In this document: piece after piece, positions 11,301-53,986 of the stretch | How the letters are laid out: each line of letters begins with the position of its first letter | Numbering within the stretch: the first letter of the stretch is position 1 | Source: a virus | DNA length: 54,750 nt | IMG/VR virus record: IMGVR_UViG_3300011113_000434 | Coordinates: 1-54,750 of that record | Direction: 5' to 3' (one strand) | The notes under the pieces: model-generated | The model's database searches: none | What the model saw: the letters and a program-made list of their open reading frames with translations, nothing else | Told to the model about the DNA's origin: nothing | Program-made: the position numbers and the translations under genes

Positions 11301-14300
11301 AAAGATGTTATTTCTAATCCACCAACAACAATAAGTATTGCATCAACTGGTGGAAAAAATCAGGAATTGAGTCTAATTAATCCACCAATTAGTGCAATAA
11401 AAGGAAATAATTTAAAGTTTGATCTATCAGACTCTTCTCTAGTTGGATATAAGTTAAAAATATACTATGATGTTGATCTTGCAAACGAATTTATATCCAT
11501 AGGTGGTAGTAGCTTCACCGTAGCAAATTATGGAACAGTCGGAGTTACAACAAATGCTGCTTTAATCATTGAATACAGTGATACTATTCCATCAAAACTC
11601 TTCTATGCATTAGAAAAATCTGGTTATATTAGTACCTCTGATAAAGAAGTAGTTAATTCATCACAAATATCTTTTGTTGACAGTCTTTATAATGGTTCTT
11701 ATAAAATAGTTGGTGTTGGATCAACTACTTTTGAGTTATCACTTGCACAAAAACCAGAGAGATCTCAATATACAATTAATGAGTGTAGGGAATTAAAATA
11801 TACAACAACATCTCTAAATGCAAGAGGTGGTGTTGATAAAATGAAAATTGTATTCGGTGGATTTGGATATAAGAGATTACCACTATTCCAATATATTAAT
11901 TCTGATACTGGAATAAATGCAAATATTAATATACTCTCAGATAATATTGGTAATATAAAAGATATTAGAATTTTAGATCAAGGATTTGAATATGCTTCAG
12001 ACAAAACATTAAGACCAGAAGCACTCATTTCTCCACTTTTAACATTAGTAGATAATACCGAAATTACAAGTGTTGAAGTTCTTGATGGTGGAAAAAATTA
12101 TACTTCTGCACCAAATATTGTTATCTACAATCCATCAACTGATGAAATTGTTAACAGTGGATATTTAAAAGCAAATACTTACTCAAATTCAGTCAGCAAT
12201 GTTGAAATTATTGATGTACCTAAAGGTTTAAATGCAGTTGTTCATGAACTATATGCTGTTGATAATACAAATGGTGTTGGTATCAATACCATTATATCTG
12301 GTCCTGGAGTTGTTACTTGTTTCCTATCTACTCCTGCTATTGGATTCTCAACAGCACCATTTGCAGTTGGTGATGTAATTTTTGTTGAAGGAATTCAGAA
12401 TAATACATCTCAGGGAGATGGATTCAATTCTATTGATCACAACTTTACATTTTTTACAGTTAATAAATTTGTTAATACGGTTCCCGCAAGATTGGAATAT
12501 GATATTTCTGTAGCAACTAATAATCCTGGACTAGCAAAAACTGACCAATTCTCTTTTGCAAATATCGTCAAAAAATCTGATCTTCCTAGATTTAGAATTA
12601 CACAAGCCGAATCCAAGTTTAAACTTGGAGAAACAATTGCTGTAAAAAATTCTAATGGATCATTCACCATTCAAGATCTTATAGTCACTGATTTTAGATC
12701 TAATAAAATTAAAATCCTAGGTGAATACGAATTAGTTACTGGCGACATCATTAAAGGTCAAATATCTGGTTCTATAGCAGAGATTGAAAATACATCACCA
12801 AATAAAGGTAGATTTGAAACAGATTATTCACTAAGAAAAGATTTTGGATGGAGTGATGATGTTGGAAAGTTAAATGAAGACTATCAGGTTATTCCTGATA
12901 ATGATTATTATCAAAATCTCTCATATACTGTCAAGAGTCCTCTAGAATATGAAGAGTTAATTACTCCTGTAAACAGACTTCTTCATAGCACAGGTATGAA
13001 GAATTTTGCAGATACTCAAGTTTCAACATCTTCTACACTATCCATTCAATCTGAAGATGTTACTAGTTTGGCCCTGATTGATATTATTAATGAAGAAAGT
13101 GTTGAAGAAATTAAGAATTTAGATCTAGGTTTAGATGTTGATGTTCTAGTAGATGGATCTCAGAAATCAAAATTCTTCAAATTTAAAAATAGAAAACTTG
13201 CAGACTACATTGAGTGTAGAACCAATAGAGTTCTTTTAATTGATGATATTTCAACACAATTCTCTAATAGTAATCTAAATGAAGGTGGATATGCTGATAT
13301 TTACAACTACAGTGAAACTTATGCTCGTTTCTTAGTTCAAATTAAGGATACTAATGAGCGTTTCATGCAGTTATCCGAATTGATTGTATTGTATACAGAT
13401 AGTGAAGTTCTTATTGAAGGTATTAAAGATGCAAAAACATTTACCTTAGAAAAAGGATCTTTATACAATAAAGCAAATCCAATTGGCAATTTAGATGGTA
13501 ACATTGACCAATTCGATAATCTAACACTGAGATTTACACCACAATCTACATTCATTGATGATTATGATATTAAGATTTTGGTTAATAAGTTTAATACAAC
13601 TGTTGGTGGCGGATCTAGTATCAATAATTATGGAGCAGTTTCTCTAAACTCAAGATCTAAGCAAGTTGGTTCTGGAACATCGGAAACTATTATTGAATTT
13701 GATTCGACTAAAGTAGATGGTTTCCATGGAACAATTCATGTTTTAGATTTAGAAAATAATGAGATGAATTTCTATGAGGTATATTCATATACTGATAGAA
13801 CTGATGTTTATATGTCAGAGTATTATTTTGATAACCAAAAAGCAACTACAAGTGCTTCAACAAATGTTTTAGGAACATTTACTTCATATCTCTCTGGGGG
13901 AGTTCTTAAATTAGATTTTGATAACAACAAAACACTAACCAATAAACTTGTGAGAGCAAGAATAGTTGGTTTTGGATCAACTGCTTTAGGAATTGGAACT
14001 TATAGATTTGCTCTTCCTGGACAACCACAAGAAAGAAGTGCTAGATATGACTCTTCTGTTGTTCACACAGTTGGAGCATCGTCAACAACTGTTGTTGGTG
14101 TTGCAAGTGATATTATCTCTTCTGTTAAATCATATGTTAGAGTTTCTGCTGGAAATACCTCAGCACTCCATCAAGTTATGATGATGCATGATGGAAGAGA
14201 AATTTATGTGCTTCAATATCCATTCCTATCAATAGGATCAACAACTGGAATTGGAACTTTTGGTGGACAATTTGTCAGTGATTTGGTTAGACTTAATTTC

Positions 14301-17300
14301 TATCCAGATTCAAATATTACTGGAGTAGTAACCATTACATCATTTAACGAAAAACTTTACGCATTTGCTGATAGGCAAAATAAAGCACCAGATTTTGTTT
14401 ATGGTCCAGAAACAGATTCTCTAGTTCTTTCTGAATATAATGGAACTCAAGGCGATAGAATTAACCGTCTTGATTTTACTGCTTCATATCAAGGATACCC
14501 AATCTTCAGCAAATCTTTTGATCCAGGAGATTCAGCACAACTTAATCTAGCGACTGGTATATTTACAATTAAAAATCACTTCTTCCAAACTAATGAAAAA
14601 CTAAATTATCAATCAGCATCAACTTTTGTTGGAGTAAATCCTGTTTCCGTTGGAATTGGATCGACTCTGGTTGGGGGAGTAACATTTACTGGTGATTTTA
14701 TATCTGGATTCTCAACAATTACTGGTGTTAGTACTTCTACTGGTTTACTAGTTGGTCAAACAGTAATTGGCCCAGGAGTACAGAATAATACAACAATTGT
14801 CAGCATTGGTCAAACCTTTAGGTGGTTTAGAGGTAATGTTTCCACAGGATCTACAGTAATTACTGGAATAGCAAATACTGCGATAATGGTTGTTGGATCT
14901 GGTATTTTCTCTGGAAATGGAACCAATCTAGGAACTCTAATTTCGATCGGCATTAATTCAATTAGTGCTAGTACAACTTTACCAGTTGGTACTGGAGTAA
15001 CTTATTATATTAACGCTCTTGGCATTGGAGTATCACTATCTAAAGTTTCTACTGCTACAACATTTAGACAAACATATACAAGCGGAATTGTAACAACTAT
15101 TTGTCCATCTACAGTTTATGCAATTAAGTTAGATAATGATAGATTCAAACTTACAGGAACTCAGGGTTCTGGAATTGCATTTACCTTTACTTCTGCTGGT
15201 AGTGGTAATGCTCATAAACTAACAATGGATAAGAGATTAGAAAAATCTCTTATTTGTATTGATAATGTTAATCAATACCCACTTGCATTTACTCCAATAT
15301 CATATAAGTTAGCAAATAATAGCGGTCAAATTGGAGCAGCAAATACTGTATTTGGAATTAGTGGTATTAGTTCCATTCGAGTAAATGATGTTCTTAAAGT
15401 TGATAATGAATTTATGAAGATCCTATCATTTGGATATGGATCTAGCACTACAGGACCTATTAGTGGAATTGGAACTTTCCTCTTGATGTCGGTTGAGAGA
15501 GGTTTCTCTGGAACGATTGCAACAGCACACTTAGATAATGCAGATGCTAGAATTTATAGAGGAGCATATAATATTGAAGAAAGCACCATTTATTTCACTG
15601 CGGCACCTCTTGGATCTGGTGTAAATGTTTTAGATAGTAGCAATCTAAAGAGACCAGTATCTAAGTTTGATGGTAGAGTATACCTGAGAAAGGATTATAC
15701 AACTAATAAGATATATGATGATATTTCAGACTCATTTACTGGAATTGCTCAAACATTTAGACTGAGAAATCAAGGAAACTCAACAACAGGAGTAGAAGCT
15801 GGAAGTGGGGTTGTATTTGTTAATGAAATGTTCCAGACTCCAACTACTGGAAATAACGCAGGAAATAATTATGCTCTGCAAGAAAATTCAGGAAATACAA
15901 ATGTTATCTTTACTGGCATTACTTCAAGTGATGGTTCGATTGTAAAATCTTTAGTTGATGTCAATCAAAATCAATTGCCAAGGGGTGGAATTATTATTTC
16001 TCTTGGATCAACTCCAGGTTTAGGATATGCACCTCTAAAAGGAGCACAAGTTGGAATTATTACTGGACCTAGTGGTCAAATCACAAACATTGTAAGTGTT
16101 GCAACTACTGGATCTTACTCTTCTATGACTGGATTCAGTTATAATCAAGTTACTGGTGTTGCAACCGTTTCAACCGCAGCTTCTCATGGTTTACTTGTTA
16201 ATGATCAAATATCATTTAGAAATATCAAACTTGAATGTCCAGATGGATATGCTGGATTAGGAACAGTTGGAATTAGTAGTTTGTTCTACAGTAATGTTAC
16301 TGGATTTATGACAGTAACTACAAGTTCTCCTCATAAGTTGGCAACAGGAATGAATATTAGATTGAGAAATCTAAGATTTGATTGTCCAATTGGAGTTGGT
16401 GGAACCATTGGAATTGTTACTGCTCAATATAGTAAAGCAACTGGTGTTTTAACAGTAACAACAAATTATGCTCATGGACTAGGAATTGGTGGAACTGTTC
16501 AATTAAGAGAACTACAATTCTCTTGCACTGGACCTTCTGGAATTACAACGACTATATTCCCAGATGGAACTCGTGGATATTTCTTCCCTGTTAATAATGT
16601 TGGATCAACTACATCATTTACAACAAATGTAGGAACATCAACCATCACTCATAATTATCAGAGAGGTGGATATGTCCGCGTTGGGGTAACAACTGATCTG
16701 TTCCCCGATGGATCAAGAGGATACATCTTTACTGTTGCTTCCATTGTTGGACCAAATACATTTGGTGTTAATGTTGGAACAAGTACAATTCGCCATAACT
16801 ACATCAATGGTGGAACAATTGAATCTGGAATTACAACTAATATCTTCCCAGATTCAAGAGGAGTTCCATTTAGCATCAGTAACTTCCAATATCATAAGAC
16901 AACAGGTGTTTCTACAATAACCTTTAATAGTAATCATAACTTTAAGTTATCGGATACTATTAAAATTGTTAATGCTAGATTTGATTGTCCAATTGCTGCT
17001 GGAACAACAATTGGAATTACGTCTGCTCAATATAGTAAAACAACTGGAATTCTAACAGTAACCACTGCTACTCCTCATGGTCTTGGTGTTGGTGGAACAA
17101 CAAGAATATTTGCTATGAACTTCTCTTGCCCACCAGGAAGTTCTGGAATTACAACAACTGTCTTCCCAGATGGAACTCGTGGATATTTCTTCCCTGTTAA
17201 TCTTGTCGGATTCCCAACACAATTCACAACAAACGTTGGAACATCTACAATTACACACAACTATGTAAATGGTGGTTATATACAGATTGGTATTACTACT

Positions 17301-19529
17301 GATCTTTTCCCAGACAGAGGCAAGAACTTTACTATTACCAGTATTCCAAGTGCAAATCAAATTGTAACTAATGTTGGCGTTTCTACAATAAACCATAATT
17401 ATGTTGGTGATGGATATGCATATGCTGTTAAGAGAACTGGTCCATATTCTGTAACAAGGGTACTAAGTAATACTCAATTTGAAACTAATGTTTATACTGT
17501 TGGATTTGCTCATACTTATGTAAGTGGTGGTGAAGTTTCTAAGTATTATAGTTTCCAACCAGGATCTGGTTATAGAGGAGAAATTGGAGTTGCTTTAAGT
17601 TCTCCAACTGGTAGTGGTGCAAACATTACAGCGTTTGCTGGAATTGGTGGAACCCTAGGATTTAAGATTAATTCTGCTGGATCTGGATACGGATTTGATA
17701 ATACCTACGTTACTATTCCTGAACCATCTTATGAGAATGTTCAAATTAAGGGGGTTTCAAGAGTTGGTATTGGATCCACAACTGAAACTGGAATTGGTCT
17801 GCTACTATCTCTTGAAGTTGGTGCAGCAGCAACAACTGGAATTGGATCAGATACTTGTGAAATTACAAACTTTAGAATTAGCAGACCTGGTTATGCATTC
17901 CAATTAGGAGATGTATTCACTGCTGTTGGATTAGTAACTGCTAAAAATCTAGTATCTCCTATTAATCAATTTGAGTTAACGGTTACTAATCTTTATTCTG
18001 ATTCATTTGCTGCTTGGCAATTTGGTGAACTAGACTTTATTGATTCTATTAAACCTCTACAGGATGGATCTAGAACGAGATTCCCACTACTTTATAATGG
18101 TCAACTTCTAAGTTTTGAAATTAATGCCAATGATCCAGATTCTTCTCAGATTGATCTTAATGCTGTTCTACTGATTTATATCAATGGTGTACCACAAACC
18201 CCAGGTGTAGCATATCAATTTGATGGAGGAACATCATTTACATTTACAACACCACCATCAGAAGAAGCCGATGTTGCTATTTTCTTCTACAGAGGAACAA
18301 GAAATAGTGATAGTATATTTGTAAATGTTAATGAAACTATTAAACCTGGAGATATTATTCAAATTGGTAAAAATAATGATATCAGAACTACTGTAGAACA
18401 ATATCCAAGAGTTGTATATGACATTAGTTCGGCTGATAAAGTGCAAACAAATCTATATGCAGATATTGGAATTGATGATACAAACTATAAACCAGTTAAT
18501 TGGAGAAAACAAAAAGTAGACCAAATTCTTGGTGGTGAATATGTCTATAAGACTAGAGATTCTTTAGAGTCTTCAGTATATCCAACTGGAAAGATTATTA
18601 AAAATCTCTCAGCAACAGATATAGATTTATTTGTTGATGATGCTAGATTCTTTAATTATGAAGAAAATGAATCTGTTATTGCAATTGGTGATTTTGATTT
18701 GATATTAACTAATACACCAGAAGATCCTGTTGCCGCTAGATTAACTGCAAATGTTTCTACCGCAGGAACAGTTAGCTCTTTAACCGTTGCTAACGGTGGA
18801 AGTGGATATAGTTCAGGAACTGCTACAGTTAAGATTGCTGCTCCAAAGAGCATTGGAATTGGAATTGGAACAACAGCAGTTGCAACCGTAACCGTGCTTA
18901 ATGGAACAATTGTAAGTGCAACCGTTACTAATGGTGGATTTGGATACTCACAATCAAAACCACCTGCGGTTATCGCTTCGGTTCAGAAAGCATATTATGA
19001 GAATATTACAAATGTAACCAGTGTTCTAGGATTCTCTGGAATTATAACTGGTATTACAACAACCTCAGGAACTGGTGGCCACCCATTAGCACTAAAACTG
19101 TTCTTAAATACAAGTACTTCATTTGCTTCACTATTAGATAATTATCCAATTTACGTTTTTGATACTGCTGTTGGAAGAGGTGTAACTTCTGTAGATGGTG
19201 GAAATAATTCTGTGGTTGGTGTTGGAACAACTTTTGCAGACAATATTTACTATGTACACTCAATAACACGTTATGGCGTAAATGCAGAAATTATTACAAA
19301 TATTCACAGTGGAACATCTGTTGTTGGACTGGCGACAACAGGAAGTACTACAAACCCTGTTGGTAAATTCTCTTGGGGTAAATTTGGTGGATTCACTAGA
19401 GGATCTACTGCAGTTTCAATTGGTATAACTGGATTAACAGTCAGTTCTGGATTATCAACATTCCCAACTGTCCAAAGAAGAGGATATGGATTGAGAGATC
19501 ATGGTGGATTGAGAAAAATTCTTGTTTAA
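5358..19529 (+). CDS. giant (4723 aa) baseplate/tail-associated protein in the gp7 position
   Basis: One uninterrupted frame follows gp6 where T4 has gene 7, so its N-terminus (about 1-250, containing FIREARSFYQAKGTEESFRI) is probably the wedge-attached part. T4 gp7 has about 1030 residues; this is over four times longer. Most of the rest is a mosaic of beta modules. These are GSGY-type repeats, a D-E-M...RG..GT..H module (about 98-136, 1543-1575, 3346-3398), a GD.V.Y...YYV..D...L module, and a YHYH domain (about 1195-1285, with IIGWAYDGNPIYGPYGY). Residues about 3640-4045 are a tandem duplication. The C-terminus ends RGYGLRDHGGLRKILV. It has no signal peptide or obvious enzyme motif. The likely role is a large peripheral baseplate structure for host contact. 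The gp7 identity is inferred from position. Confidence 0.75.
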   Translation: MISTGFDARVKINQIIESQLPEFLLSESPKSIEFFKQYYISQEFTGGSYDIAENLDQYLKLDNLTPEVITASTSLSSNITSNSGVVTVTSTKGFPSEYGLLKIDDEIITYTGLTTNTFTGCIRGFSGISSYHSETNPEELVFSSTDAASHSSGSTVENLSVAFLKEFYKKLKYSLTPGLEDEDFVPDLNVGNFIREARSFYQAKGTEESFRILFNVLYGYTPKVINLDNLLLRPSSAAFLRREVIIAEKISGNPNNLIGQTIYKSTDLKTKASVSNVEILTRGQKTYYRLDLFVGFSDADVVEGNFTISPKSRVIDSVSIGSSVITVDSTIGFDQSGTVICGNNTITYLDKTINQFLGCSGVDFAISPATDIRSDEVYYGYEDGDINAKSEIRITGVLSDFTELNNIEEVIVGEKILVKNLGESISNPDSANQSYKQLFANSWIYNTSSRFNILNISGSTFTLGTEIDDSSLKVGDHVDILIRNTQTIVVSDAIVANINKSNKQIILNNIISFSPVSSIDYDIRRKINKASSNAAEIEYGNNQIVSDVQNVYNELDEYFYVASNSLPSYPIEIEFTEASISDAIGGGSLQGLDVNTETYSIISFAQAVPFITGDEVVYSSQNSDIPGLVSGSTYFVKVLPLTNQIKLYASRSFIEIDDYVMFYETLIAGSHTFTLSSQKNRKVFPQKLLRKFPLSQNIKNGSNEKTNTGSIGLLVNGVEIINYKSDEKVYYGPIDNIKVFNQGENYDVINPPTIEVAAPSSGVQALIRPVVSGIVTDVVVDPQDFDIADVTSVTITGGNGSGCQLQPILEDRYRTVSFDARVTTQSGGVDINQETITFLTNHNFKNGEPIVYSNNGNQNLGVATYFGGNFDQSRYLVNGGTYYAKLFSNNTIRLHPTLTDFISGINTVGFSTINAVGIHKFRTFNSRKTLRAIKVLNSGSGYENRKLYAKPSAVSLSQDWISFDNHNFKDGDLVTYSTTGSAISGLSTSNQYYVIKYDSDTFRLANAGIGGTISSNYARGSYVKLNSQGSGYHIFSYPEISLNVNVSFASSTAGIITATPVIRGKIVDAYLYENGSGYGSKTINLHKKPQISIKTGTGAELKAFVVNGIIVSVQVLAAGSNYNAAPDLVVNGEGIGAVLRAKVSGGSITDVIVINGGSNYVQNTTSVSVQPPGKNAFIDISVRSLTINYANRFGKETLLPSENNVGYGWIGYSTSIALDQFSDDGANHSPIIGWAYDGNPIYGPYGYSDPEDSASTIKLLKTGYTLNPSIITNRPSGFSPGFFVEDYIYDDSGDLDYHNGRYTKTPEFPNGVYAYFTGISTNVATNELDPSFPYFIGDTYRSTVIQDNFLNLNQTFDFNSSNLIRNTYPYKVNQDYADNDFIIESNEVTNQSLIVESTTKGSINSYEILEAGDGYAMGESAVFDNSGTNGGGLSAEVSSLKGKTIANIQTQTQIYNNVVFTWKDKTSVEATVSPYHTLLDQENVSISGLSTYVPKLTGSHSVGVSTESIVVFKEIPANSVSGLVTDIYVSRVSNTISIGSTLGIGTEFMSVLNIFKDQNVLRVKRGVTGTAHTDRTRIDILANKLTVPISINHFDGYLNDKFYFNPKYSIGIGRTDGISSLVKVSIGETSQDVSVLSRSIYAPNHPFKNNQRVVLSIPPGSSPISVANTSGGAAFTIPYTGVSTQTLYVVNKSPNSIGLVTEFSTTSYIVSFGSTLAVTNAEYSNVTGILTVTTSTPHSFSPGFSLASLSSLVFGQVSPNDAYTTTQYTLWADVLFDKEDEIFIVNTPSGLLPTGTFAVLSTPNVNTFTVNVGTSLTAFGYSYGGSVLGFTSFTVYNSDGLYFLNNGSDNYEYLLRSDYTEVTGKIEKNKTVVSISTDHGLKNGDNITLTVKPNLTVGIGTSSFVKVKINSTEGKILINPIGFGSVGISTFSGVINIPSHGYATGDKVFYNASDEIASGLTTSSYYVYRIDNDNIKLSESYKDVISNPPTTISIASTGGKNQELSLINPPISAIKGNNLKFDLSDSSLVGYKLKIYYDVDLANEFISIGGSSFTVANYGTVGVTTNAALIIEYSDTIPSKLFYALEKSGYISTSDKEVVNSSQISFVDSLYNGSYKIVGVGSTTFELSLAQKPERSQYTINECRELKYTTTSLNARGGVDKMKIVFGGFGYKRLPLFQYINSDTGINANINILSDNIGNIKDIRILDQGFEYASDKTLRPEALISPLLTLVDNTEITSVEVLDGGKNYTSAPNIVIYNPSTDEIVNSGYLKANTYSNSVSNVEIIDVPKGLNAVVHELYAVDNTNGVGINTIISGPGVVTCFLSTPAIGFSTAPFAVGDVIFVEGIQNNTSQGDGFNSIDHNFTFFTVNKFVNTVPARLEYDISVATNNPGLAKTDQFSFANIVKKSDLPRFRITQAESKFKLGETIAVKNSNGSFTIQDLIVTDFRSNKIKILGEYELVTGDIIKGQISGSIAEIENTSPNKGRFETDYSLRKDFGWSDDVGKLNEDYQVIPDNDYYQNLSYTVKSPLEYEELITPVNRLLHSTGMKNFADTQVSTSSTLSIQSEDVTSLALIDIINEESVEEIKNLDLGLDVDVLVDGSQKSKFFKFKNRKLADYIECRTNRVLLIDDISTQFSNSNLNEGGYADIYNYSETYARFLVQIKDTNERFMQLSELIVLYTDSEVLIEGIKDAKTFTLEKGSLYNKANPIGNLDGNIDQFDNLTLRFTPQSTFIDDYDIKILVNKFNTTVGGGSSINNYGAVSLNSRSKQVGSGTSETIIEFDSTKVDGFHGTIHVLDLENNEMNFYEVYSYTDRTDVYMSEYYFDNQKATTSASTNVLGTFTSYLSGGVLKLDFDNNKTLTNKLVRARIVGFGSTALGIGTYRFALPGQPQERSARYDSSVVHTVGASSTTVVGVASDIISSVKSYVRVSAGNTSALHQVMMMHDGREIYVLQYPFLSIGSTTGIGTFGGQFVSDLVRLNFYPDSNITGVVTITSFNEKLYAFADRQNKAPDFVYGPETDSLVLSEYNGTQGDRINRLDFTASYQGYPIFSKSFDPGDSAQLNLATGIFTIKNHFFQTNEKLNYQSASTFVGVNPVSVGIGSTLVGGVTFTGDFISGFSTITGVSTSTGLLVGQTVIGPGVQNNTTIVSIGQTFRWFRGNVSTGSTVITGIANTAIMVVGSGIFSGNGTNLGTLISIGINSISASTTLPVGTGVTYYINALGIGVSLSKVSTATTFRQTYTSGIVTTICPSTVYAIKLDNDRFKLTGTQGSGIAFTFTSAGSGNAHKLTMDKRLEKSLICIDNVNQYPLAFTPISYKLANNSGQIGAANTVFGISGISSIRVNDVLKVDNEFMKILSFGYGSSTTGPISGIGTFLLMSVERGFSGTIATAHLDNADARIYRGAYNIEESTIYFTAAPLGSGVNVLDSSNLKRPVSKFDGRVYLRKDYTTNKIYDDISDSFTGIAQTFRLRNQGNSTTGVEAGSGVVFVNEMFQTPTTGNNAGNNYALQENSGNTNVIFTGITSSDGSIVKSLVDVNQNQLPRGGIIISLGSTPGLGYAPLKGAQVGIITGPSGQITNIVSVATTGSYSSMTGFSYNQVTGVATVSTAASHGLLVNDQISFRNIKLECPDGYAGLGTVGISSLFYSNVTGFMTVTTSSPHKLATGMNIRLRNLRFDCPIGVGGTIGIVTAQYSKATGVLTVTTNYAHGLGIGGTVQLRELQFSCTGPSGITTTIFPDGTRGYFFPVNNVGSTTSFTTNVGTSTITHNYQRGGYVRVGVTTDLFPDGSRGYIFTVASIVGPNTFGVNVGTSTIRHNYINGGTIESGITTNIFPDSRGVPFSISNFQYHKTTGVSTITFNSNHNFKLSDTIKIVNARFDCPIAAGTTIGITSAQYSKTTGILTVTTATPHGLGVGGTTRIFAMNFSCPPGSSGITTTVFPDGTRGYFFPVNLVGFPTQFTTNVGTSTITHNYVNGGYIQIGITTDLFPDRGKNFTITSIPSANQIVTNVGVSTINHNYVGDGYAYAVKRTGPYSVTRVLSNTQFETNVYTVGFAHTYVSGGEVSKYYSFQPGSGYRGEIGVALSSPTGSGANITAFAGIGGTLGFKINSAGSGYGFDNTYVTIPEPSYENVQIKGVSRVGIGSTTETGIGLLLSLEVGAAATTGIGSDTCEITNFRISRPGYAFQLGDVFTAVGLVTAKNLVSPINQFELTVTNLYSDSFAAWQFGELDFIDSIKPLQDGSRTRFPLLYNGQLLSFEINANDPDSSQIDLNAVLLIYINGVPQTPGVAYQFDGGTSFTFTTPPSEEADVAIFFYRGTRNSDSIFVNVNETIKPGDIIQIGKNNDIRTTVEQYPRVVYDISSADKVQTNLYADIGIDDTNYKPVNWRKQKVDQILGGEYVYKTRDSLESSVYPTGKIIKNLSATDIDLFVDDARFFNYEENESVIAIGDFDLILTNTPEDPVAARLTANVSTAGTVSSLTVANGGSGYSSGTATVKIAAPKSIGIGIGTTAVATVTVLNGTIVSATVTNGGFGYSQSKPPAVIASVQKAYYENITNVTSVLGFSGIITGITTTSGTGGHPLALKLFLNTSTSFASLLDNYPIYVFDTAVGRGVTSVDGGNNSVVGVGTTFADNIYYVHSITRYGVNAEIITNIHSGTSVVGLATTGSTTNPVGKFSWGKFGGFTRGSTAVSIGITGLTVSSGLSTFPTVQRRGYGLRDHGGLRKILV
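16280..17490 (+). repeat. ~606-bp tandem duplication inside the giant baseplate gene
   Basis: Two consecutive units (about 16280-16885 and 16886-17490) encode the same series: Y-x-x-TG-x-x-TVTT-x-x-x-HGL, F-x-CP, SGITTT-x-FPDGTRGYFFPVN, FTTNVGTSTITHNY, then a GITTDLFPD strand. A 39-base stretch starting at 16557 recurs exactly at 17163. Another (AGATTTGATTGTCCAATTG) lies at 16374 and 16977. The 606- and 603-base offsets show a one-codon indel. A partial third unit precedes them from about 16130. Confidence 0.75.
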
Positions 19530-36005: not shown

Positions 36006-36431
36006 ATGTCAAATATGTTTGATAATCTTGATAAGGCATTTTCAACTGAAAGTGATATAGTTCCTGTTGAAGAAAAATCGGTCGAGATAGAAGTTGTCAA
36101 TAAAGAATCATCTGAAGACATAAAAAAAGATTACGACTACACACGTGCAAATTTATATTCATTAATTGAAAAAGGTCAAGAAGCAATTAATGGAATATTG
36201 GAACTTGCAGGAGAAGGGGGAAGTCCTAGAGCATATGAAGTTGCTGGTCAATTGATTAAAAGTGTTGCAGATACAACAGATAAACTAATGGATCTGCAAA
36301 AGAAATTAAAAGACGTTGAGCAAGATACTGTTAAAACAACTAATAACGTTACAAATAATGCATTATTTGTTGGATCAACATCTGAGTTATCAAAGATACT
36401 CAAACAAGGTTTTCTAAATAATAAGGAGTAA
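36006..36431 (+). CDS. 16: small terminase subunit gp16
   Basis: gp16 recognises replicated DNA and stimulates the gp17 packaging motor. The 141 residues contain the conserved helical core DYDYTRANLYSLIEKGQEAI, GILELAGEGGSPRAYEVAGQ, the coiled coil, and the tail NNVTNNALFVGSTSELSKIL, which is the most diagnostic part. T4 gp16 is slightly longer (164). The 13-base gap before the ATG contains TATAAATT, but it is too close to the start to act as its promoter. The large terminase gene is separated from it by about 3.9 kb. Confidence 0.93.
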   Translation: MSNMFDNLDKAFSTESDIVPVEEKSVEIEVVNKESSEDIKKDYDYTRANLYSLIEKGQEAINGILELAGEGGSPRAYEVAGQLIKSVADTTDKLMDLQKKLKDVEQDTVKTTNNVTNNALFVGSTSELSKILKQGFLNNKE

Positions 36432-36443
36432 TCTACTTTTTCA

Positions 36444-38570
36444 ATGAGTTGGTCGGAAAAATATAAGCGATCTATTGATTGTGATAATCCAAAAGGATTT
36501 TCACAGAGAGCTCACTGTCAAGGTCGAAAGAAAAAATTGAAAGAGCAATTAAAACCATTTAAGTCAGTTGAACAGATTGCAAAAAAGCATCGTCTTGATG
36601 TTTCTTTCATTCAAAGGCAACTTGATATGGGTGAACCAATTGAACATGAACACACAAAAGATCATAAGTTGGCGATGGAGATTGCCCTTCAGCATTTAGA
36701 TGAAATTCCAGATTATTATACTCGTTTGAAAAAGATGGAAGCATCTGCTAAAAAAGAGCATAAAAAATTTAAAGATGTAAAAGAACATTGTGGTTGTGAA
36801 GATAATGCTGTGGAAGAACTTGAAGATCAATTAAAAGATCTAAAAGACACTTCTTATGATTCAATTGATAAATTAATGCGTCGTATTATGAAAAAGCATG
36901 ATATGACCGCAAAGCAATTACATAATGCATTTGTAGATAAAAATGGAAAAACTCCAGATGATTGGATTGAAGATCTGGAAGAAGGAACTTTACACCACTG
37001 GTTTAGAGGTTCTCGTTCTAAGGGTGGCAAACCAGGTTGGGTTCAAGCAGATGGTTCTCCTTGTGCTAATGAACCTGGAGAAACTAAAACTCCAAAATGT
37101 TTTAGTAGCGGCAGATTAAAATCACTCAAAAGAAAAGGTAAAAAAGGATTAGCGTTAATAAAATCAGCAGTTAGACGTAAAAGACAAAAAGATAAAGGGC
37201 AACAAGCAAAATCTGGAGCAGCAGCGCCAACTAATGTTCCAACTTTTGCAAAGGGTAAAAAAGATCCAAATTATGTAAAAGCAGAACCAGGAATTAAAGA
37301 AGCAATGGAACTTAACGAAGCAAAAAAAGACAAGCCTGGAAAAGGAAGTGGAACTAAGGATGCTTGCTACCATAAAGTTAAAGCAAGATATGACGTTTGG
37401 CCAAGTGCATATGCATCTGGAGCACTTGTAAAATGTCGTAAAGTTGGCGCAGATAATTGGGGAAATCAATCAGAAGAAACTCAAATGATCAGATATTGTC
37501 CAAAGTGTCAAAAAGATGAGACACGTTCAGAATGCAAATATGGTCCAAAATATTGGGATATGTTTTCTATTCCATCTTCATTAACTGGATTGAGTGCAAA
37601 TCAAATAAAATATGATCCAAATAGACCTCATCCAGCAAATGAAGCCTATGATCATGAGTATTCAATGGCTCGCTCAGAACTTTCAACAATTATTGCTGCT
37701 GCAAAAAGATTGAAGAAAAAAATTGGAAAGGGTGAAGGTAGTCTTGAGGCATGGGTTCAATCAAAGATTACCAAAGCAGCAGATTATATTGATACTGCTG
37801 CTGATTATGTTGATAGTGGTGAGATGAGTGAGGGTATTATTGATACTCTTGCTGCAAAAGTTGGACCTGTTATTGATAAAGGTGTAAACGCTGTTTTTGG
37901 AAAACCAAAAGTAACTATTAAAGAACCTAAAGTTACTCCTTCACCCACTTCTGGTTATCCAAATAAAGCAGTTCCAGAACCAGCATCTAATAGATTTTTA
38001 AGACCTGCTCCTTCTCCATCTCCAACCCCATCATCTTCAGCACAACCACAACAAAAAAATTATGGAAATGTTGGATCAGTTGGAAATGTGGGCGGAAATT
38101 TAAGATATGTTATGGATAAAGCAAAAGAAAGAAATAAGATACTAAATCAACAAAATTCTTATCAACCAGAAGGAGATCTAATTGACGAAGCAGGTAAAAA
38201 GTGTTGGACTGGTTACAAGAAGAAAGGTACACAAGAATTATTTGGTAAGAAATATAATCGTTGCGTTAAAGAAGGATATTCAAACTGGAGAGAAGAACTT
38301 GGTTTAACTGAAGATTGGCAGTCAGTCAATCGTAAAGATAAAACTGATGGTCTCAGCCAGAAAGCAGTTGATGCTTATCGCCGCGAAAACCCAGGTTCAA
38401 AACTACAAACGGCAGTAACAGAGAAAAATCCAAAAGGTAAGAGAGCTAAGCGTCGTGCCAACTTCTGTCGCAGAATGAAAGGAATGAAATCTAAACTAAC
38501 CTCTGCTAAGACAGCAAGGGATCCTGATAGCAGGATAAATAAAGCACTAAGACGTTGGAATTGTCGCTGA
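36444..38570 (+). CDS. 708-aa mosaic of basic modules, candidate head-packaged polyprotein
   Basis: A Lys/Arg-rich mosaic behind an AAGGAG ribosome-binding site. The modules in order are: SWSEKYKRSIDCDNPKGFSQ (1-30); a DUF5661-like helix pair (HTKDHKLAMEIALQHLDEIP, about 70-100); LHHWFRGSRSKGGKPGWVQA (181-250); KDACYHKVKARYDVWPSAYA (305-340); a CxxC zinc-ribbon-like segment (350-365); EYSMARSELSTIIAA (405-460); a Pro/Ser linker (490-540); GKKCWTGYKKKGTQELFGKK (584-605); and a DUF6321-like terminus (GLSQKAVDAYRRENPGSKLQ ... RRWNCR). Four junctions contain gp21-type sites: L-E-E/G at 178-181, L-N-E/A at 290-293, A-N-E/A at 398-401 and I-D-E/A at 580-583. I infer a head-internal polyprotein cut during maturation. 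DUF names are from memory. Confidence 0.6.
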   Translation: MSWSEKYKRSIDCDNPKGFSQRAHCQGRKKKLKEQLKPFKSVEQIAKKHRLDVSFIQRQLDMGEPIEHEHTKDHKLAMEIALQHLDEIPDYYTRLKKMEASAKKEHKKFKDVKEHCGCEDNAVEELEDQLKDLKDTSYDSIDKLMRRIMKKHDMTAKQLHNAFVDKNGKTPDDWIEDLEEGTLHHWFRGSRSKGGKPGWVQADGSPCANEPGETKTPKCFSSGRLKSLKRKGKKGLALIKSAVRRKRQKDKGQQAKSGAAAPTNVPTFAKGKKDPNYVKAEPGIKEAMELNEAKKDKPGKGSGTKDACYHKVKARYDVWPSAYASGALVKCRKVGADNWGNQSEETQMIRYCPKCQKDETRSECKYGPKYWDMFSIPSSLTGLSANQIKYDPNRPHPANEAYDHEYSMARSELSTIIAAAKRLKKKIGKGEGSLEAWVQSKITKAADYIDTAADYVDSGEMSEGIIDTLAAKVGPVIDKGVNAVFGKPKVTIKEPKVTPSPTSGYPNKAVPEPASNRFLRPAPSPSPTPSSSAQPQQKNYGNVGSVGNVGGNLRYVMDKAKERNKILNQQNSYQPEGDLIDEAGKKCWTGYKKKGTQELFGKKYNRCVKEGYSNWREELGLTEDWQSVNRKDKTDGLSQKAVDAYRRENPGSKLQTAVTEKNPKGKRAKRRANFCRRMKGMKSKLTSAKTARDPDSRINKALRRWNCR

Positions 38571-38746
38571 TGAAATTCGATCCCGATGATATCTCTTTAG
38601 AGAATCTAACTAAAAACTTTGAGTATACAAAGATTGCACGTGAGATTGATTCTTGTGATGATCTTGAATATATGAAAAATGTTGCAAAGTGCTATGTAAA
38701 ACTTTATTTCAAAACACAAGAAACAATCGCAGCAATGGTCAAATGA
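38570..38746 (+). CDS. hypothetical protein, 58 aa
   Basis: I choose ATG 38570, whose A is the last base of the previous TGA (TGATG). The product (MKFDPDDISLENLTKNFEYT ... CDDLEYMKNVAKCYVKLYFK, then QETIAAMVK) is all-helical. The pattern EIDSCDDLEYMKNVAKCY resembles short proteins I recall from many T4-like phages, with no known function. Its stop overlaps the next ATG (ATGA), so it is translationally coupled on both sides. It has no membrane segment. Confidence 0.65.
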   Translation: MKFDPDDISLENLTKNFEYTKIAREIDSCDDLEYMKNVAKCYVKLYFKTQETIAAMVK

Positions 38747-39057
38747 AATCATTCAAAGAATTTCTATCAGAAAGCATTAATATTGCTGGTGATTTCAACG
38801 GTAATCTTTACGTTAATAGTTCCGAAACACAATCGGAACCAGTTGGGGAATCTTTTCTTGCAGATATAATGTGGCAAGGAAAAATATATCGCCTTGAAGT
38901 TGAGGGTAAAATGATGGATAAAAACTCTCTAACAGAACAAATTCAAGGTGAATATCCTGGCGCGATTGTTCATAATGTTTATCCATTAACACAAAATTCT
39001 GTAAAAATTAAAAACGCACAGAGGTATAAGCCTGAAAGTTTAAATTGGGGTGATTGA
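38743..39057 (+). CDS. candidate internal head protein with capsid-targeting-like N-terminus (104 aa)
   Basis: Starting at ATG 38743 (ATGA overlap with the preceding stop) the protein begins MKSFKEFLSES. This matches the T4 internal-protein capsid-targeting sequence MKTYQEFIAEA position by position, with a gp21-type site L8-S9-E10/S11. The remaining 94 residues are a mixed alpha/beta domain (NLYVNSSETQSEPVGESFLA, IYRLEVEGKMMDK, YPGAIVHNVYPL). I infer that it is packaged in the prohead, trimmed by gp21 and possibly ejected with DNA. The mature domain is not recognised. Confidence 0.6.
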   Translation: MKSFKEFLSESINIAGDFNGNLYVNSSETQSEPVGESFLADIMWQGKIYRLEVEGKMMDKNSLTEQIQGEYPGAIVHNVYPLTQNSVKIKNAQRYKPESLNWGD

Positions 39058-40380: not shown

Positions 40381-42081
40381 ATGTCTGATGATGTTTACTT
40401 AGGTAATCCGAACCTCAAGAGGGCAAACACGCCTATTGAGTTTACGGAAGAAAATATTCTAGAATTTGTAAAATGCAAAAGTGATCCTGTTTACTTTGCA
40501 AAAAACTATATAAAGATTGTAACTCTTGATCATGGATTACAACCTTTTAAGATGTATCCATTTCAAGAGAAGTTGATCAAAAACTTCCACAATCACAGAT
40601 TTAATATCTGTAAGATGCCTCGCCAGACAGGTAAATCAACAACTTGTGTTTCGTATTTGTTACATTATGCCATCTTTAACGATAACGTTAATATAGCTAT
40701 ATTGGCGAACAAAGCATCTACTGCAAGAGATCTTCTCCAAAGATTACAACTTGCTTATGAGAACTTGCCAAAGTGGATGCAACAAGGTATTTTATCTTGG
40801 AATAAAGGTTCTCTAGAACTCGAAAATGGATCCAAAATTTCAGCAAACTCTACATCTTCATCTGCTGTCAGAGGCGGATCGTATAATATCATCTTTTTGG
40901 ACGAATTCGCTTTCATCCCGAATCACATTGCTGACGACTTCTTTGCCTCTGTTTATCCTACTATTTCTTCTGGTCAAAGCACAAAGGTCATCATAGTTTC
41001 CACGCCACGTGGAATGAATCATTTCTACCGCATGTGGCATGATGCGGAAAGAGATAAAAATGAATATGTCCCAACAGAAGTTCACTGGTCTGAAGTTCCA
41101 GGAAGAGATGATAAGTGGAAAGCACAAACCATTGCAAACACATCAGAACAACAGTTCCGTGTTGAGTTTGAGTGTGAGTTTCTGGGATCAGTCGATACAC
41201 TGATCAACCCAGCTAAACTTAGAACTCTCGTTTATGATGATCCAATAAAAAGGAATAAAGGATTGGATGTTTATTTGAATCCAATTGAGGAGCATAATTA
41301 TCTCATTACAGTTGACGTTGCTCGTGGAGTTGGTAGTGATTATTCTGCATTCATAGTTTTTGATATTACAAACTTTCCATATAGAGCAGTTGCAAAATAC
41401 AAAAACAATGAAATAAAACCAATGCTATTCCCAGCAATTATTCACCAAATTGCAAAAGCATATAATGATTCTTGGGTTTTGATTGAAGTTAATGACATTG
41501 GAGATCAGGTAGCAAATATTCTTCACTTTGATCTTGAATATGATAATGTTTTGATGTGTGCAATGAGAGGTCGTGCAGGTCAAATTGTTGGATCTGGATT
41601 TAGTGGTAAAAAATCCCAACTTGGTGTCCGCATGACATCTGCTGTTAAAAAATTAGGATGCTCTAATTTAAGAACTTTGATTGAGGATGATAAACTTGTA
41701 GTTAATGACTATGATATTATTAGCGAGCTAACTACATTTACTCAACGCCATAATACTTTTATGGCAGAAGAGGGATGTAACGATGACCTTGCAATGTGTC
41801 TTGTTATTTTCTCTTGGTTAGTTGCTCAGCAATACTTTAAAGAAATGACGGATAATGATGTCCGTAAGAGAATTTATGATGAGCAAAAAAATCAAATAGA
41901 ACAGGATATGTCACCTTTTGGATTTATCTCAGATGGATTTGAGGATACTGAAGAAATAACTGTTGATGTTGCTACTGGTGACAAATGGTTATTTGCAAAA
42001 GCAAAGAGTGAAATTGAAACAATGGAAATTTGGAACGTTGATGAATATGGGGATAGATCTTATATGTGGGATTACAGATAA
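40381..42081 (+). CDS. 17: large terminase subunit gp17
   Basis: gp17 is the ATP-driven DNA-packaging motor and headful nuclease. Seen in the sequence: Walker A PRQTGKST (80-87), Walker B NIIFLDEF with D174-E175, coupling motif STPRG (207-211), and the RNase H-like nuclease start ITVDVARGVGSDYSAF with D312 and D320. Later TFTQRHNTFMAEEGCNDDLA supplies the remaining acidic ligands. It has 566 residues against 610 in T4. Unlike T4, it is not adjacent to gp16. The stop overlaps the next ATG (TAATG). Confidence 0.96.
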   Translation: MSDDVYLGNPNLKRANTPIEFTEENILEFVKCKSDPVYFAKNYIKIVTLDHGLQPFKMYPFQEKLIKNFHNHRFNICKMPRQTGKSTTCVSYLLHYAIFNDNVNIAILANKASTARDLLQRLQLAYENLPKWMQQGILSWNKGSLELENGSKISANSTSSSAVRGGSYNIIFLDEFAFIPNHIADDFFASVYPTISSGQSTKVIIVSTPRGMNHFYRMWHDAERDKNEYVPTEVHWSEVPGRDDKWKAQTIANTSEQQFRVEFECEFLGSVDTLINPAKLRTLVYDDPIKRNKGLDVYLNPIEEHNYLITVDVARGVGSDYSAFIVFDITNFPYRAVAKYKNNEIKPMLFPAIIHQIAKAYNDSWVLIEVNDIGDQVANILHFDLEYDNVLMCAMRGRAGQIVGSGFSGKKSQLGVRMTSAVKKLGCSNLRTLIEDDKLVVNDYDIISELTTFTQRHNTFMAEEGCNDDLAMCLVIFSWLVAQQYFKEMTDNDVRKRIYDEQKNQIEQDMSPFGFISDGFEDTEEITVDVATGDKWLFAKAKSEIETMEIWNVDEYGDRSYMWDYR

Positions 42082-49545: not shown

Positions 49546-50958
49546 ATGCAAATGTTCAATGCAGAACATCTGCAGGAAAAGTGGGCACCACTGCTAGACT
49601 ATACAGGTCTTGATCCTATTAAGGATTCACATCGCAGAATGGTAACCGCTGTCCTGCTCGAAAACCAAGAAAACGCAATTCGTGAAGAGCGTGAGTTCCT
49701 TTACGAAGCACCAACCAACGGAACAGCTTCAGGTGCTAGTGGCGCTGGTTTTGGTGGTAGCGCACAAGGATTCAGCGCAGGTCCTACCGCAGGTTTCGAC
49801 CCTGTTCTGATCAGCCTAATCCGCCGTTCAATGCCAAACCTGATCGCTTACGATCTTTGTGGCGTTCAACCAATGAACGGTCCTACTGGACTGATCTTTG
49901 CAATGCGCTCACGCTACAGAAACCAAAGCGGAGCTGAGAGCTTCTACAACGAAGTTGATTCAGCATTCTCTGGTCAAGATAGCGGATTCAATGAGGTTAA
50001 CGGATATACTGACGGTACAGTTGGTATGGGTACTACCGCACAAGGCGGAAGCAACCCATCAATCCTTGATCCTTCTAACCAAACTGCTAACGCTGCAAGT
50101 GGCGCTAACCAGTATAACGTTGGTCAAGGACTCAGAACTGATTCTGCTGAATCTCTTGGAGAGAGCGATCAGTTCAACCAGATGGCATTCTCGATCGAGA
50201 AAGTCACTGTTACCGCTAAGTCACGTGCTCTGAAAGCTGAGTACAGCCTAGAACTGGCTCAGGACCTCAAGGCAATCCACGGTCTGAATGCTGAAGCGGA
50301 ATTAGCAAACATTCTCTCAACTGAGATTCTTGCTGAAATCAACCGCGAAGTTATCAGAACCATCTATAAGGTTGCTGAACCAGGTGCTCAGGTTAACACC
50401 GCTACTGCTGGTACTTTTGACCTCGACGTTGACTCCAACGGTCGTTGGTCGGTTGAGAAGTTCAAGGGTCTGATCTTCCAGATCGAGCGTGATGCAAACG
50501 CTATCGCCCAGAGAACTCGTAGAGGAAAGGGTAACATGATCCTCTGCTCTGCTGACGTTGCTTCGGCACTCACCATGGCAGGTGTTCTTGATTACACCCC
50601 TGCTCTCAACGCTAACCTCCAAGTCGATGATACTGGCAACACCTTCGCTGGTGTTCTCCAAGGTAAGTATCGTGTATATATTGACCCATATTCGGCAAAC
50701 GTTGCTGCAAACCAGTTCTACGTTGTCGGTTATAAGGGTTCCAGCCCATATGACGCTGGTCTCTTCTATTGCCCATATGTTCCTCTCCAAATGGTACGTG
50801 CCGTTGGTGAGAACACCTTCCAGCCAAAAATCGGGTTTAAGACTCGTTATGGCATGGTTGCGAACCCATTCGCTGAGGGTACTACCCAAGGTCAGGGCGC
50901 TCTTACAACTAACGCAAACCGTTACTACAGAAGAGTTAGAGTTCAAAACCTCATGTGA
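49546..50958 (+). CDS. 23: major capsid protein gp23
   Basis: gp23 builds the hexamers of the icosahedral head. The N-terminus MFNAEHLQEKWAPLLDYTGL, the propeptide site F-L52-Y53-E54/A55 for gp21, SLIRRSMPNLIAYDLCGVQP, and PTGLIFAMRSRY with ALKAEYSLELAQDLKAIHGL are all diagnostic. It ends RYYRRVRVQNLM. It has 470 residues (T4 521). The coding sequence has visibly more C-ending codons (AAC, CTC, GTC) than the neighbouring genes, as expected of the most abundant product. It has a strong ribosome-binding site upstream and a strong terminator downstream. T4 gene 24 (vertex protein) does not follow. Confidence 0.97.
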   Translation: MQMFNAEHLQEKWAPLLDYTGLDPIKDSHRRMVTAVLLENQENAIREEREFLYEAPTNGTASGASGAGFGGSAQGFSAGPTAGFDPVLISLIRRSMPNLIAYDLCGVQPMNGPTGLIFAMRSRYRNQSGAESFYNEVDSAFSGQDSGFNEVNGYTDGTVGMGTTAQGGSNPSILDPSNQTANAASGANQYNVGQGLRTDSAESLGESDQFNQMAFSIEKVTVTAKSRALKAEYSLELAQDLKAIHGLNAEAELANILSTEILAEINREVIRTIYKVAEPGAQVNTATAGTFDLDVDSNGRWSVEKFKGLIFQIERDANAIAQRTRRGKGNMILCSADVASALTMAGVLDYTPALNANLQVDDTGNTFAGVLQGKYRVYIDPYSANVAANQFYVVGYKGSSPYDAGLFYCPYVPLQMVRAVGENTFQPKIGFKTRYGMVANPFAEGTTQGQGALTTNANRYYRRVRVQNLM

Positions 50959-52021: not shown

Positions 52022-53986
52022 ATGAAGACGTTTGTAAAATTTATATCTGAGTGTTATTTTTTTCTAACCGAAGCTAAAAAAGAAGGTGGTCGTGGTGGCC
52101 CAGACTATGACTATGAGCAATCTTTTGTGAATCTCTATAATCATATGGCGTCCGATTCTAGTAAGAAAGGCGCTGAGATGAGAAAGCAATTTAGACTTGC
52201 TGTGTCCAAAGGTGATATGTTCACAGTTGTTGATTTAATTTCAAGAGAAATACAAAGAGCTCAAACAGACCCTTCATCACCTTTATATTTTGATAATCTA
52301 GACCCAACTGATCCTGGTTTTACTGGTGGAAAAAGATCTAAAACTGGAGAGGTTGAAGATAAAGAAGCGCACAGACAAGCATATTATGATAAATTAATGA
52401 ATCAACAATATTCATTATTGAATTTTGTTCAAAGTGAAAGTGGTAGAGGACAAGTAATTAATCGTGCTGTTGCACAAAGAGAAGGTGCTACTAAAGTTCC
52501 ACTAACAGCAAAAGGAAAGGAACTAACTGGAAAAGAACAAGATACATCTAAAGTTGATGTTTCATTTACTGGTAAAGATGGAAATACATATGGAATTTCC
52601 TTAAAAGATGCCAAAGGTGCTGTTGTTAATTCATCTGGATCGGAAGAAACAAAAGCATATATTCTTCTTGGAATGGATTCTCTGTTAAATCAGCAAGAGC
52701 AATCTGGAGAAATTACTCCAGAACAGAGAGCAGAAAAAGAAGCAATGGGCACTGAACTTGCCAATCAACTTGCTCTTTATATGGCAAGTACAAGAGGCAT
52801 GTCTAAAGAGCAACAGAAAGATGCCCTTGGACAAATGCAAGAGTATTTAAGTAGTATTGAATCGGTTGTTCCAGGAACTATGCAGGCCATGTCTGCTGAA
52901 GCAATTACTGGAAAAGGAAAATATGGTGATGCCAGCACTGTTGATGCTTTATTTTCTACTGGTAGGGGTGGAGAAGTTATTGAAGATCCTTCATGGTTGG
53001 CACAATATGTTTTTCAAAGAGGAAGACTTGGTAAAGGTCAAACCAAACCAAAAGAAGGTCCTAGAGTACAAAGACCAACCACTATTGCTGGCGATATCAA
53101 AAATTATAGAGATGCTGAAAACAAACCAGAAGATAGTGAATATCTAAGAAAGTGGAGAGATGAATGGGGTCAATCTGCATGGGAGAAAAAAATTGGCGGA
53201 TTTGAACCAGAAATTCAAGATGAAATAAGAAAACTTCAAGGAACTGGTCAATTTAGTTTACGTGATTTATATAATTATGAACAACAAGATACTCAGGTTA
53301 AGCAATTGAAATCATTTGATCAATTCCAGCAAGATGCACAATCTTCAGAAAAAGATTTAATCTCTAAGCAAAAACAATATGATGCTACTGCAGCAGAAGT
53401 TGAAAAGGCTTCAGTACCTATTGATCCAGAAACTGGAAAAGAAGTTCTACATCAACGTAGACCAAATTTAAAAGCATTTATGGCAAGCAATCCAACATCA
53501 AAGGTTGCTCAAGTTAATAATGAAAGGCAGCAACAAGCTCAAGCAAAATTAACACAAGCACAGAGCGAACTTGACAATGCTTCTGCAATACACCAATCAA
53601 ATCAATCTAATTTAGACACTGTAGCATCTTCTATACAAGCACAACAACAGGCAGCAGCAGAAAAAGAACAACAACCAACTCAAACTCCAACCACAAATAA
53701 TCAACAACAGCAACAACAAACAACACAATTACCTCCTCAAGAAACACCACAACCAGAGCAACCTAAAAAACCAACACAACAAACTCAGCAAGTTGCACAA
53801 TCACAACCTGCAACACCAGAACCAACCCAACAGCAGCAACAACCAATTGCAACTACACAACAACCAACACCAACACCAACAGAAAAACCAACACCAACAG
53901 AAAAACCAATACAAGAACCTCAAAAAAAGAAAAGAAACGGAAAAGAACAAATCCAACCTGAAACTACTCAAACTCAACCACAATAA
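52022..53986 (+). CDS. unknown 654-aa protein: capsid-targeting-like N-terminus, nuclease-like motif, Gln/Pro-rich tail
   Basis: The N-terminus MKTFVKFISECYFFLTEAKK resembles the T4 internal-protein targeting leader. It has two candidate gp21 sites, I8-S9-E10/C11 and L15-T16-E17/A18. A globular part (about 30-430) contains KVDVSFTGKDGNTYGISLKD. D179 and S-L-K195 there resemble a variant PD-(D/E)XK nuclease core, the usual acid before x-K being Ser. Residues about 430-540 are a predicted coiled coil. Residues 540-654 are low-complexity Gln/Pro/Thr with a basic KKKRNGK patch. It lies between uvsY and uvsW behind a late-type promoter. I infer a head-packaged protein, possibly ejected with DNA; nuclease activity is speculative. 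No family is recognised. Confidence 0.5.
   Translation: MKTFVKFISECYFFLTEAKKEGGRGGPDYDYEQSFVNLYNHMASDSSKKGAEMRKQFRLAVSKGDMFTVVDLISREIQRAQTDPSSPLYFDNLDPTDPGFTGGKRSKTGEVEDKEAHRQAYYDKLMNQQYSLLNFVQSESGRGQVINRAVAQREGATKVPLTAKGKELTGKEQDTSKVDVSFTGKDGNTYGISLKDAKGAVVNSSGSEETKAYILLGMDSLLNQQEQSGEITPEQRAEKEAMGTELANQLALYMASTRGMSKEQQKDALGQMQEYLSSIESVVPGTMQAMSAEAITGKGKYGDASTVDALFSTGRGGEVIEDPSWLAQYVFQRGRLGKGQTKPKEGPRVQRPTTIAGDIKNYRDAENKPEDSEYLRKWRDEWGQSAWEKKIGGFEPEIQDEIRKLQGTGQFSLRDLYNYEQQDTQVKQLKSFDQFQQDAQSSEKDLISKQKQYDATAAEVEKASVPIDPETGKEVLHQRRPNLKAFMASNPTSKVAQVNNERQQQAQAKLTQAQSELDNASAIHQSNQSNLDTVASSIQAQQQAAAEKEQQPTQTPTTNNQQQQQQTTQLPPQETPQPEQPKKPTQQTQQVAQSQPATPEPTQQQQQPIATTQQPTPTPTEKPTPTEKPIQEPQKKKRNGKEQIQPETTQTQPQ

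Follow-up and report, generated by a model that had tools for sequence, protein, structure and literature searches.

A reshuffled modular protein encoded between gp16 and gp17 of T4-like marine phages is a candidate gp21-cut head polyprotein

What is made from the 708-codon ORF that separates gp16 from gp17 in a T4-like virus of the cyanophage type? The ORF (36444-38570, plus strand, as are the modules, border sites, leader-bearing neighbor, gp16, gp17, gp21 and gp23 site placed below) lies in a stretch of 54,750 nucleotides, IMG/VR record IMGVR_UViG_3300011113_000434, here called the window. It is intact, with an ATG at 36444 and a stop codon ending at 38570, and its product has a net charge of +50. 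An initial annotation, made from the sequence alone, proposed that this protein is packaged in the head and cut by the prohead protease gp21 into small basic modules.

Results

Gene organization around the ORF

PHROG-named neighbors bear out the location proposed for the gene. It directly follows gp16 (terS, the terminase small subunit; 36006-36431; phrog_445, E 2e-54) within the head and tail operon, and gp17 (terminase large subunit) lies downstream at 40381-42081. The interval up to gp17 holds a 58-aa ORF, a leader-bearing ORF (38743-39057; phrog_1742) and a phrog_1645 virion protein. The leader-bearing gene starts with MKSFKEFLSE/S (the slash marks the putative cut), which resembles the capsid-targeting leaders of internal proteins, and it stays next to the polyprotein gene in S-SZBM1 (_191) and S-B43. 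The gene slot, the common modules and a C-terminal DUF6321 domain make the protein a member of the T4-GC119 / phrog_727 family of cyanophage proteins. The proposed cutter, gp21, is encoded by the same phage (47681-48331; phrog_207, E 2e-82), and the expected gp21 site in gp23, L52-Y-E54/A55, is placed at 49699-49710 by parallel with T4. Elsewhere in the window, the baseplate/fiber region contains a single 4723-aa ORF (5358-19529). A 654-aa protein (52022-53986) outside any PHROG family starts with MKTFVKFISE..FLTEA and ends in Gln/Pro/Thr-rich repeats; it is possibly another head-internal protein.

The protein is a string of about nine modules

As had been claimed, several distinct modules follow one another along the chain; we count about nine, all small. 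M1 (residues 1-34; 36444-36545) is marked by SIDC..NPKGFSQ..HC and occurs in relatives as a gene of its own, led by MKTFKQFQE. M2 (residues 43-99; 36570-36740) is DUF5661 (E 1.3e-13) and is followed by M3 (HCGCED...; residues 115-176; 36786-36971), the basic M4/M4b (LHHWFRGS...; residues 183-283; 36990-37292), M5 (KDACYHKVK...VKCRK; residues 304-345; 37353-37478), the zinc-finger-like M6 (RYCPKC...C; residues 346-386; 37479-37601) and M7 (HEYSMARSE...; residues 403-465; 37650-37838). A Pro/Ser/Gly-rich disordered linker with pLDDT < 50 (residues 466-579; 37839-38180) leads to M8 (KKCWTGYKKKGTQ...; residues 583-612; 38190-38279), which in relatives also has its own gene, beginning with MKTYQEF(V/I)(A/S)E. 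M9 (residues 624-707; 38313-38564) is DUF6321, usually the C-terminal module. DUF5661 and DUF6321 are the only Pfam names within the protein; its significant PHROG matches are all without function, and a sequence search of the PDB returned 0 matches. AlphaFold2 rendered the whole chain as separate small units (mean pLDDT 52, pTM 0.21), and a Foldseek search of the model against the PDB gave no match with E <= 0.001, only chance defensin-like ones.

Candidate cut sites lie at the module borders

T4 gp21 cleaves after L/I-x-E (PMC9026906; for its specificity and for capsid-targeting sequences (CTS) see also PMC9958956). The strict pattern [LI]xE[AG] occurs four times in the protein (178, 284, 290 and 580) versus 0.67 times in shuffled sequences (P = 0.003). 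Four E/(A/G) sites had been named in the initial annotation, and all are found at the residues given there: L178-E-E180/G181 (LEEG; 36975-36986), L290-N-E292/A293 (LNEA; 37311-37322), A398-N-E400/A401 (ANEA; 37635-37646) and I580-D-E582/A583 (IDEA; 38181-38192). The third is weak, matching with a relaxed P3 only and being replaced by FPES or MPEG, or absent, in relatives. The additional strict match, IKEA at 284, lies six residues ahead of 290. As a total, four was an undercount: border sites are also present at V112-K-E114/H115 (36777-36788), V608-K-E610/G611 (38265-38276) and L621-T-E623/D624 (38304-38315), the last after a SNWREEL leader segment. LKE/Q at 32-35 had likewise been missed, and a VTE/K is found inside M9.

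E292 does not vary among 37-54 homologues, and conservation is 90% or higher at E180 and E400. With A also allowed at P3 and a distance of at most 14 residues before the module, a hydrophobic-x-Glu motif precedes M3 in 27/27, M4 in 48/48, M5 in 51/52, M7 in 42/52, M8 in 27/29 and M9 in 48/48 close homologues, each denominator being those of the 54 homologues that have a recognizable core of the module. All seven border glutamates fall within, or at the edge of, AlphaFold segments with pLDDT < 50; the L/I-x-E sites occupy conserved, accessible positions, with a P3 broader than in the T4 rule (V, M and F too). Cutting at the seven borders would yield pieces of 114, 66, 112, 108, 182, 28, 13 and 85 residues with net charges, from N- to C-terminus, of +8, -8, +17 (fragment 181-292, M4/M4b), +7, +3, +7, -2 and +18. 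Most predicted module pieces have exactly two cysteines.

Modules are reshuffled and the border signal travels with them

Relatives of the protein were found in 499 phage records, mostly from cyanophages plus Pelagibacter phages, and a search of viral contigs gave 458 candidate stretches. Scanning 350 loci with profiles of ten module segments identified 376 module-bearing ORFs, 249 of them non-redundant, in which the modules stand in about 80 different orders. In one of these phages, S-SM2, a DUF192 domain is found as an added module between VKE/S and IEE/G (SSM2_109; L083 3710-5836).

Because whole-chain homology could not account for a signal that moves with the modules, border signals were counted on de-duplicated contexts and compared with 1000 composition shuffles and with random windows of the same proteins. 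Hydrophobic-x-Glu precedes M8 in 83 of 89 contexts (shuffle mean 36.5, max 50), M9 in 54 of 59 (26.4, 37), M5 in 37 of 41 (18.4, 28), M4 in 31 of 38 (9.1, 17), M1 in 22 of 28 (9.6, 17), M3 in 10 of 11 (3.6, 8) and M7 in 22 of 35 (6.2, 14), exceeding the maximum of the 1000 shuffles in all seven cases. M2 only equals the shuffle maximum (n=7), and the borders of M6, including that in the window protein, are not significant (9/19 vs 7.7 in shuffles). The expectation that sites would be conserved at module borders thus holds, even where module order differs. The predicted cuts lie mostly 0-3 residues ahead of the module core, with mainly A, G, K, D or E at P1'. The border logo has V, L, I, M or F at P3 by construction; an unrestricted count at the border glutamates gave V27 L22 I15 M11 F5 percent (the hydrophobic option being preferred at EE pairs), whereas at other glutamates V, L, I and M each account for about 5-6 percent. 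Depletion of the motif inside modules was also considered; it is true for M4, M5, M6 and M7 (mildly for M4b) and false for M1 and M9, and was therefore dropped as support.

Some polyproteins have KTFxxFMxE leader-like segments directly before DUF6321, a position taken by SNWREELxxE in other phages. Leader-like segments number 23 inside polyproteins versus 6.1 after shuffling, sitting just ahead of M9 or M8, and NWR segments number 125 versus 2.0. The SNWREEL..E segment repeats before several unrelated modules. A further 65 NWRxxL copies lie far from every modelled module, which makes it likely that more modules exist.

Relatives encode single modules behind capsid-targeting leaders

A check suggested in the initial annotation was whether relatives have genes for individual modules behind capsid-targeting leaders, and such genes were found. 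By a loose pattern, 32 module ORFs start with a capsid-targeting-like leader. The clearest cases for M8 are MKTYQEFVAE/AKKCWPGYKKKGTQ (L253) and MKTYQEFISE/AKKCW (L227, L207), with the leader-module junction reading MKTYQEFVAE/AKKCW...; for comparison, T4 IPII and IPIII, translated in this analysis, start with MKTYQEFIAE/A. For M1 they are MKTFKQFQE/(E/D)WSNKYKKSIDC (many) and MKTFKEFIEE/SWSQKYKK (L207). In S-SZBM1, the gp16-gp17 slot includes a gene (_192) that joins MKTFKQYITE/A to a Cys module and DUF6321. These stand-alone relatives have the N-terminal CTS of T4-type internal proteins, about 10 residues ending in x-E/A, whereas the window protein begins with MSWSEKYKRS. A leader at the polyprotein N-terminus was rejected as a general feature, being missing from the window protein and from most polyproteins. 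In about 20 contigs a leader-M1 gene abuts or overlaps (gap 0 or -3) a polyprotein gene that lacks an N-terminal M1; in the window protein M1 is fused on and the leader is missing.

T7-like phages, too, have DUF6321, there on its own and encoded directly behind the capsid gene. In 25 T7-like contigs with stand-alone DUF6321, neither the leader (0/25) nor the border motif (0/25) was found. As a family, T7-like phages are not known to have a gp21-type protease.

Two module-bearing relatives were detected in S-CREM2 virions

Mass spectrometry of S-CREM2 virions detected two module proteins, ORF137 and ORF160 (PMC10665884). ORF137, from the gp16-gp17 slot, consists of M3 and DUF6321 and was represented by 4 peptides, a low coverage of 4.1%; ORF160 was represented by 7 peptides (13.1%) in the same proteome. 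In ORF160 (L081 38343-39236) an N-terminus like the gp23 N-arm (phrog_696) is joined to three Cys modules: M4 after LSE/A, M8 after LEE/K and M5 after ISE/G. ORF136 (L081 17302-18015), a basic virion protein from the gp16-gp17 slot, has a leader-like start, MQTFSMFFSE/D. S-SZBM1_192 and _194 are not among the virion proteins detected in the published S-SZBM1 proteome; an 87-aa protein from the gp16-gp17 slot, S-SZBM1_195 (L357 1189-1452), is among the top by emPAI there. GC0119 is labelled "structural protein" in the S-B43 and S-P4 records. Detection of GC119 in S-SM1 virions is suggested, from later annotations alone.

Discussion

The comparisons establish a modular architecture, its reshuffling among relatives, conserved signals at the borders and stand-alone versions fused to leaders. 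We infer that the ORF product is the precursor of several modules that are small, contain Cys and are mostly basic. It probably becomes part of the prohead core, to be cut there by the phage's own gp21 after hydrophobic-x-Glu at the module borders. The released modules would, at least in part, stay in the head alongside the DNA and probably pass into the host together with it, in the manner of T4 internal proteins. An exchange of modules among relatives would then amount to a swap of cargo behind one processing signal. The comparative evidence strongly supports a gp21-cut head polyprotein without proving it, and we consider the whole proposal, including retention with the DNA and delivery, to be likely. 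In favor of the multi-cargo precursor put forward initially are the conserved borders, the leader-led module genes and the relatives in S-CREM2 virions. The N-terminal leader that would explain entry of the 708-aa protein into the prohead is missing, which speaks against it. The shortness of the motif, a P1' wider than in T4, the non-significant M6 borders, the few cases of M2, the VTE/K inside M9, the low coverage of ORF137 and the non-detection of S-SZBM1_192 and _194 also count against it.

The alternative that fares best, though we think it unlikely, is a component of the prohead core or scaffold like T4 gp22, gp67 and gp68, cut by gp21 into pieces that are not cargo but mostly exit the head, freeing space for the DNA. 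Motif and protease would both be shared with such proteins, which are cut to many pieces and have several gp21 sites per chain (PMC9026906), and the low S-CREM2 coverage and the non-detection in S-SZBM1 fit as well. However, the T4 proteins are degraded scaffold, not strings of exchangeable folded modules; single modules fused to leaders look like internal proteins, and two relatives were detected in virions. Somewhat less probable still is an uncut beads-on-a-string virion or packaging protein in which hydrophobic-x-Glu is merely a common linker or helix-cap habit. The cut sites are indeed predicted ones with a short motif, the AlphaFold model has flexible linkers and the terminase genes adjoin; yet for unrelated modules the motif is enriched at the borders relative both to shuffles of matched composition and to random windows, the same junction occurs in leader-led genes, and the T7-like phages are without the signal. 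That the modules act late in the infected cell (e.g., in DNA binding or packaging control), with the virion signal due to contamination or carry-over, would suit basic modules with Cys pairs, the gp16-gp17 slot and the free DUF6321 protein of podoviruses, but is very improbable given the capsid-targeting leaders of module genes and the detection of several genes from this slot in CsCl-purified virions.

How does a gp21-cut head polyprotein compare with known systems? The stand-alone M1 and M8 relatives carry the same type of leader as T4 IPI, IPII and IPIII, cut ahead of the module and, for M8, nearly identical in letters, and the cargo is likewise small, basic and variable in gene content; the T4 proteins, in contrast, are separate, with one leader each, whereas the window protein strings its modules together in one chain and has no leader at its N-terminus. 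The inner-body proteins of phiKZ and SPN3US are also cut after Glu in a short motif by a gp21-like protease, but they lose long propeptides to give one mature protein each, with no multiple cargo modules. The nearest existing concept is that of the polyvalent proteins of phages and conjugative elements, which carry many domains per chain, are predicted to be packaged and delivered, and were compared to polyproteins by Iyer et al. 2017 (PMC5512222). Theirs, however, have large enzymatic domains, with processing ascribed to an embedded peptidase; the two Pfam domains of the window protein include neither a peptidase nor any named polyvalent domain, and the word "cyanophage" is absent from the text of that paper. 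Earlier annotation of T4-GC119 / phrog_727 proteins is hypothetical or structural only, and we found no processing model for them. Papers mentioning DUF6321 or the T4 CTS letters were looked for and not found, and neither internal proteins or targeting leaders of cyanophages nor a polyprotein of their heads is described in the literature searched; most subscription journals lie outside it, and our claim of novelty is limited to the searched part.

Reshuffled modules with a cut-like signal before most of them suggest a swappable protein payload for infection. It seems conceivable, at odds that we would put slightly short of even, that T4-like phages infecting marine picocyanobacteria and Pelagibacter carry such cassette head cargo: a fast-reshuffling polyprotein made of small modules that the head protease separates and that are packed alongside the DNA and co-delivered, new modules arising when leader-bearing genes for internal proteins become fused to it. 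The family is present in about 500 phage records, almost all of them from cyanophages or Pelagibacter phages, and is labelled "hypothetical" or "structural" in the records examined. If the proposal is correct, the protein payload packed by these phages has several interchangeable parts, and the border signal would provide a sequence rule to find head cargo not yet recognized and a way to learn what their hosts receive.
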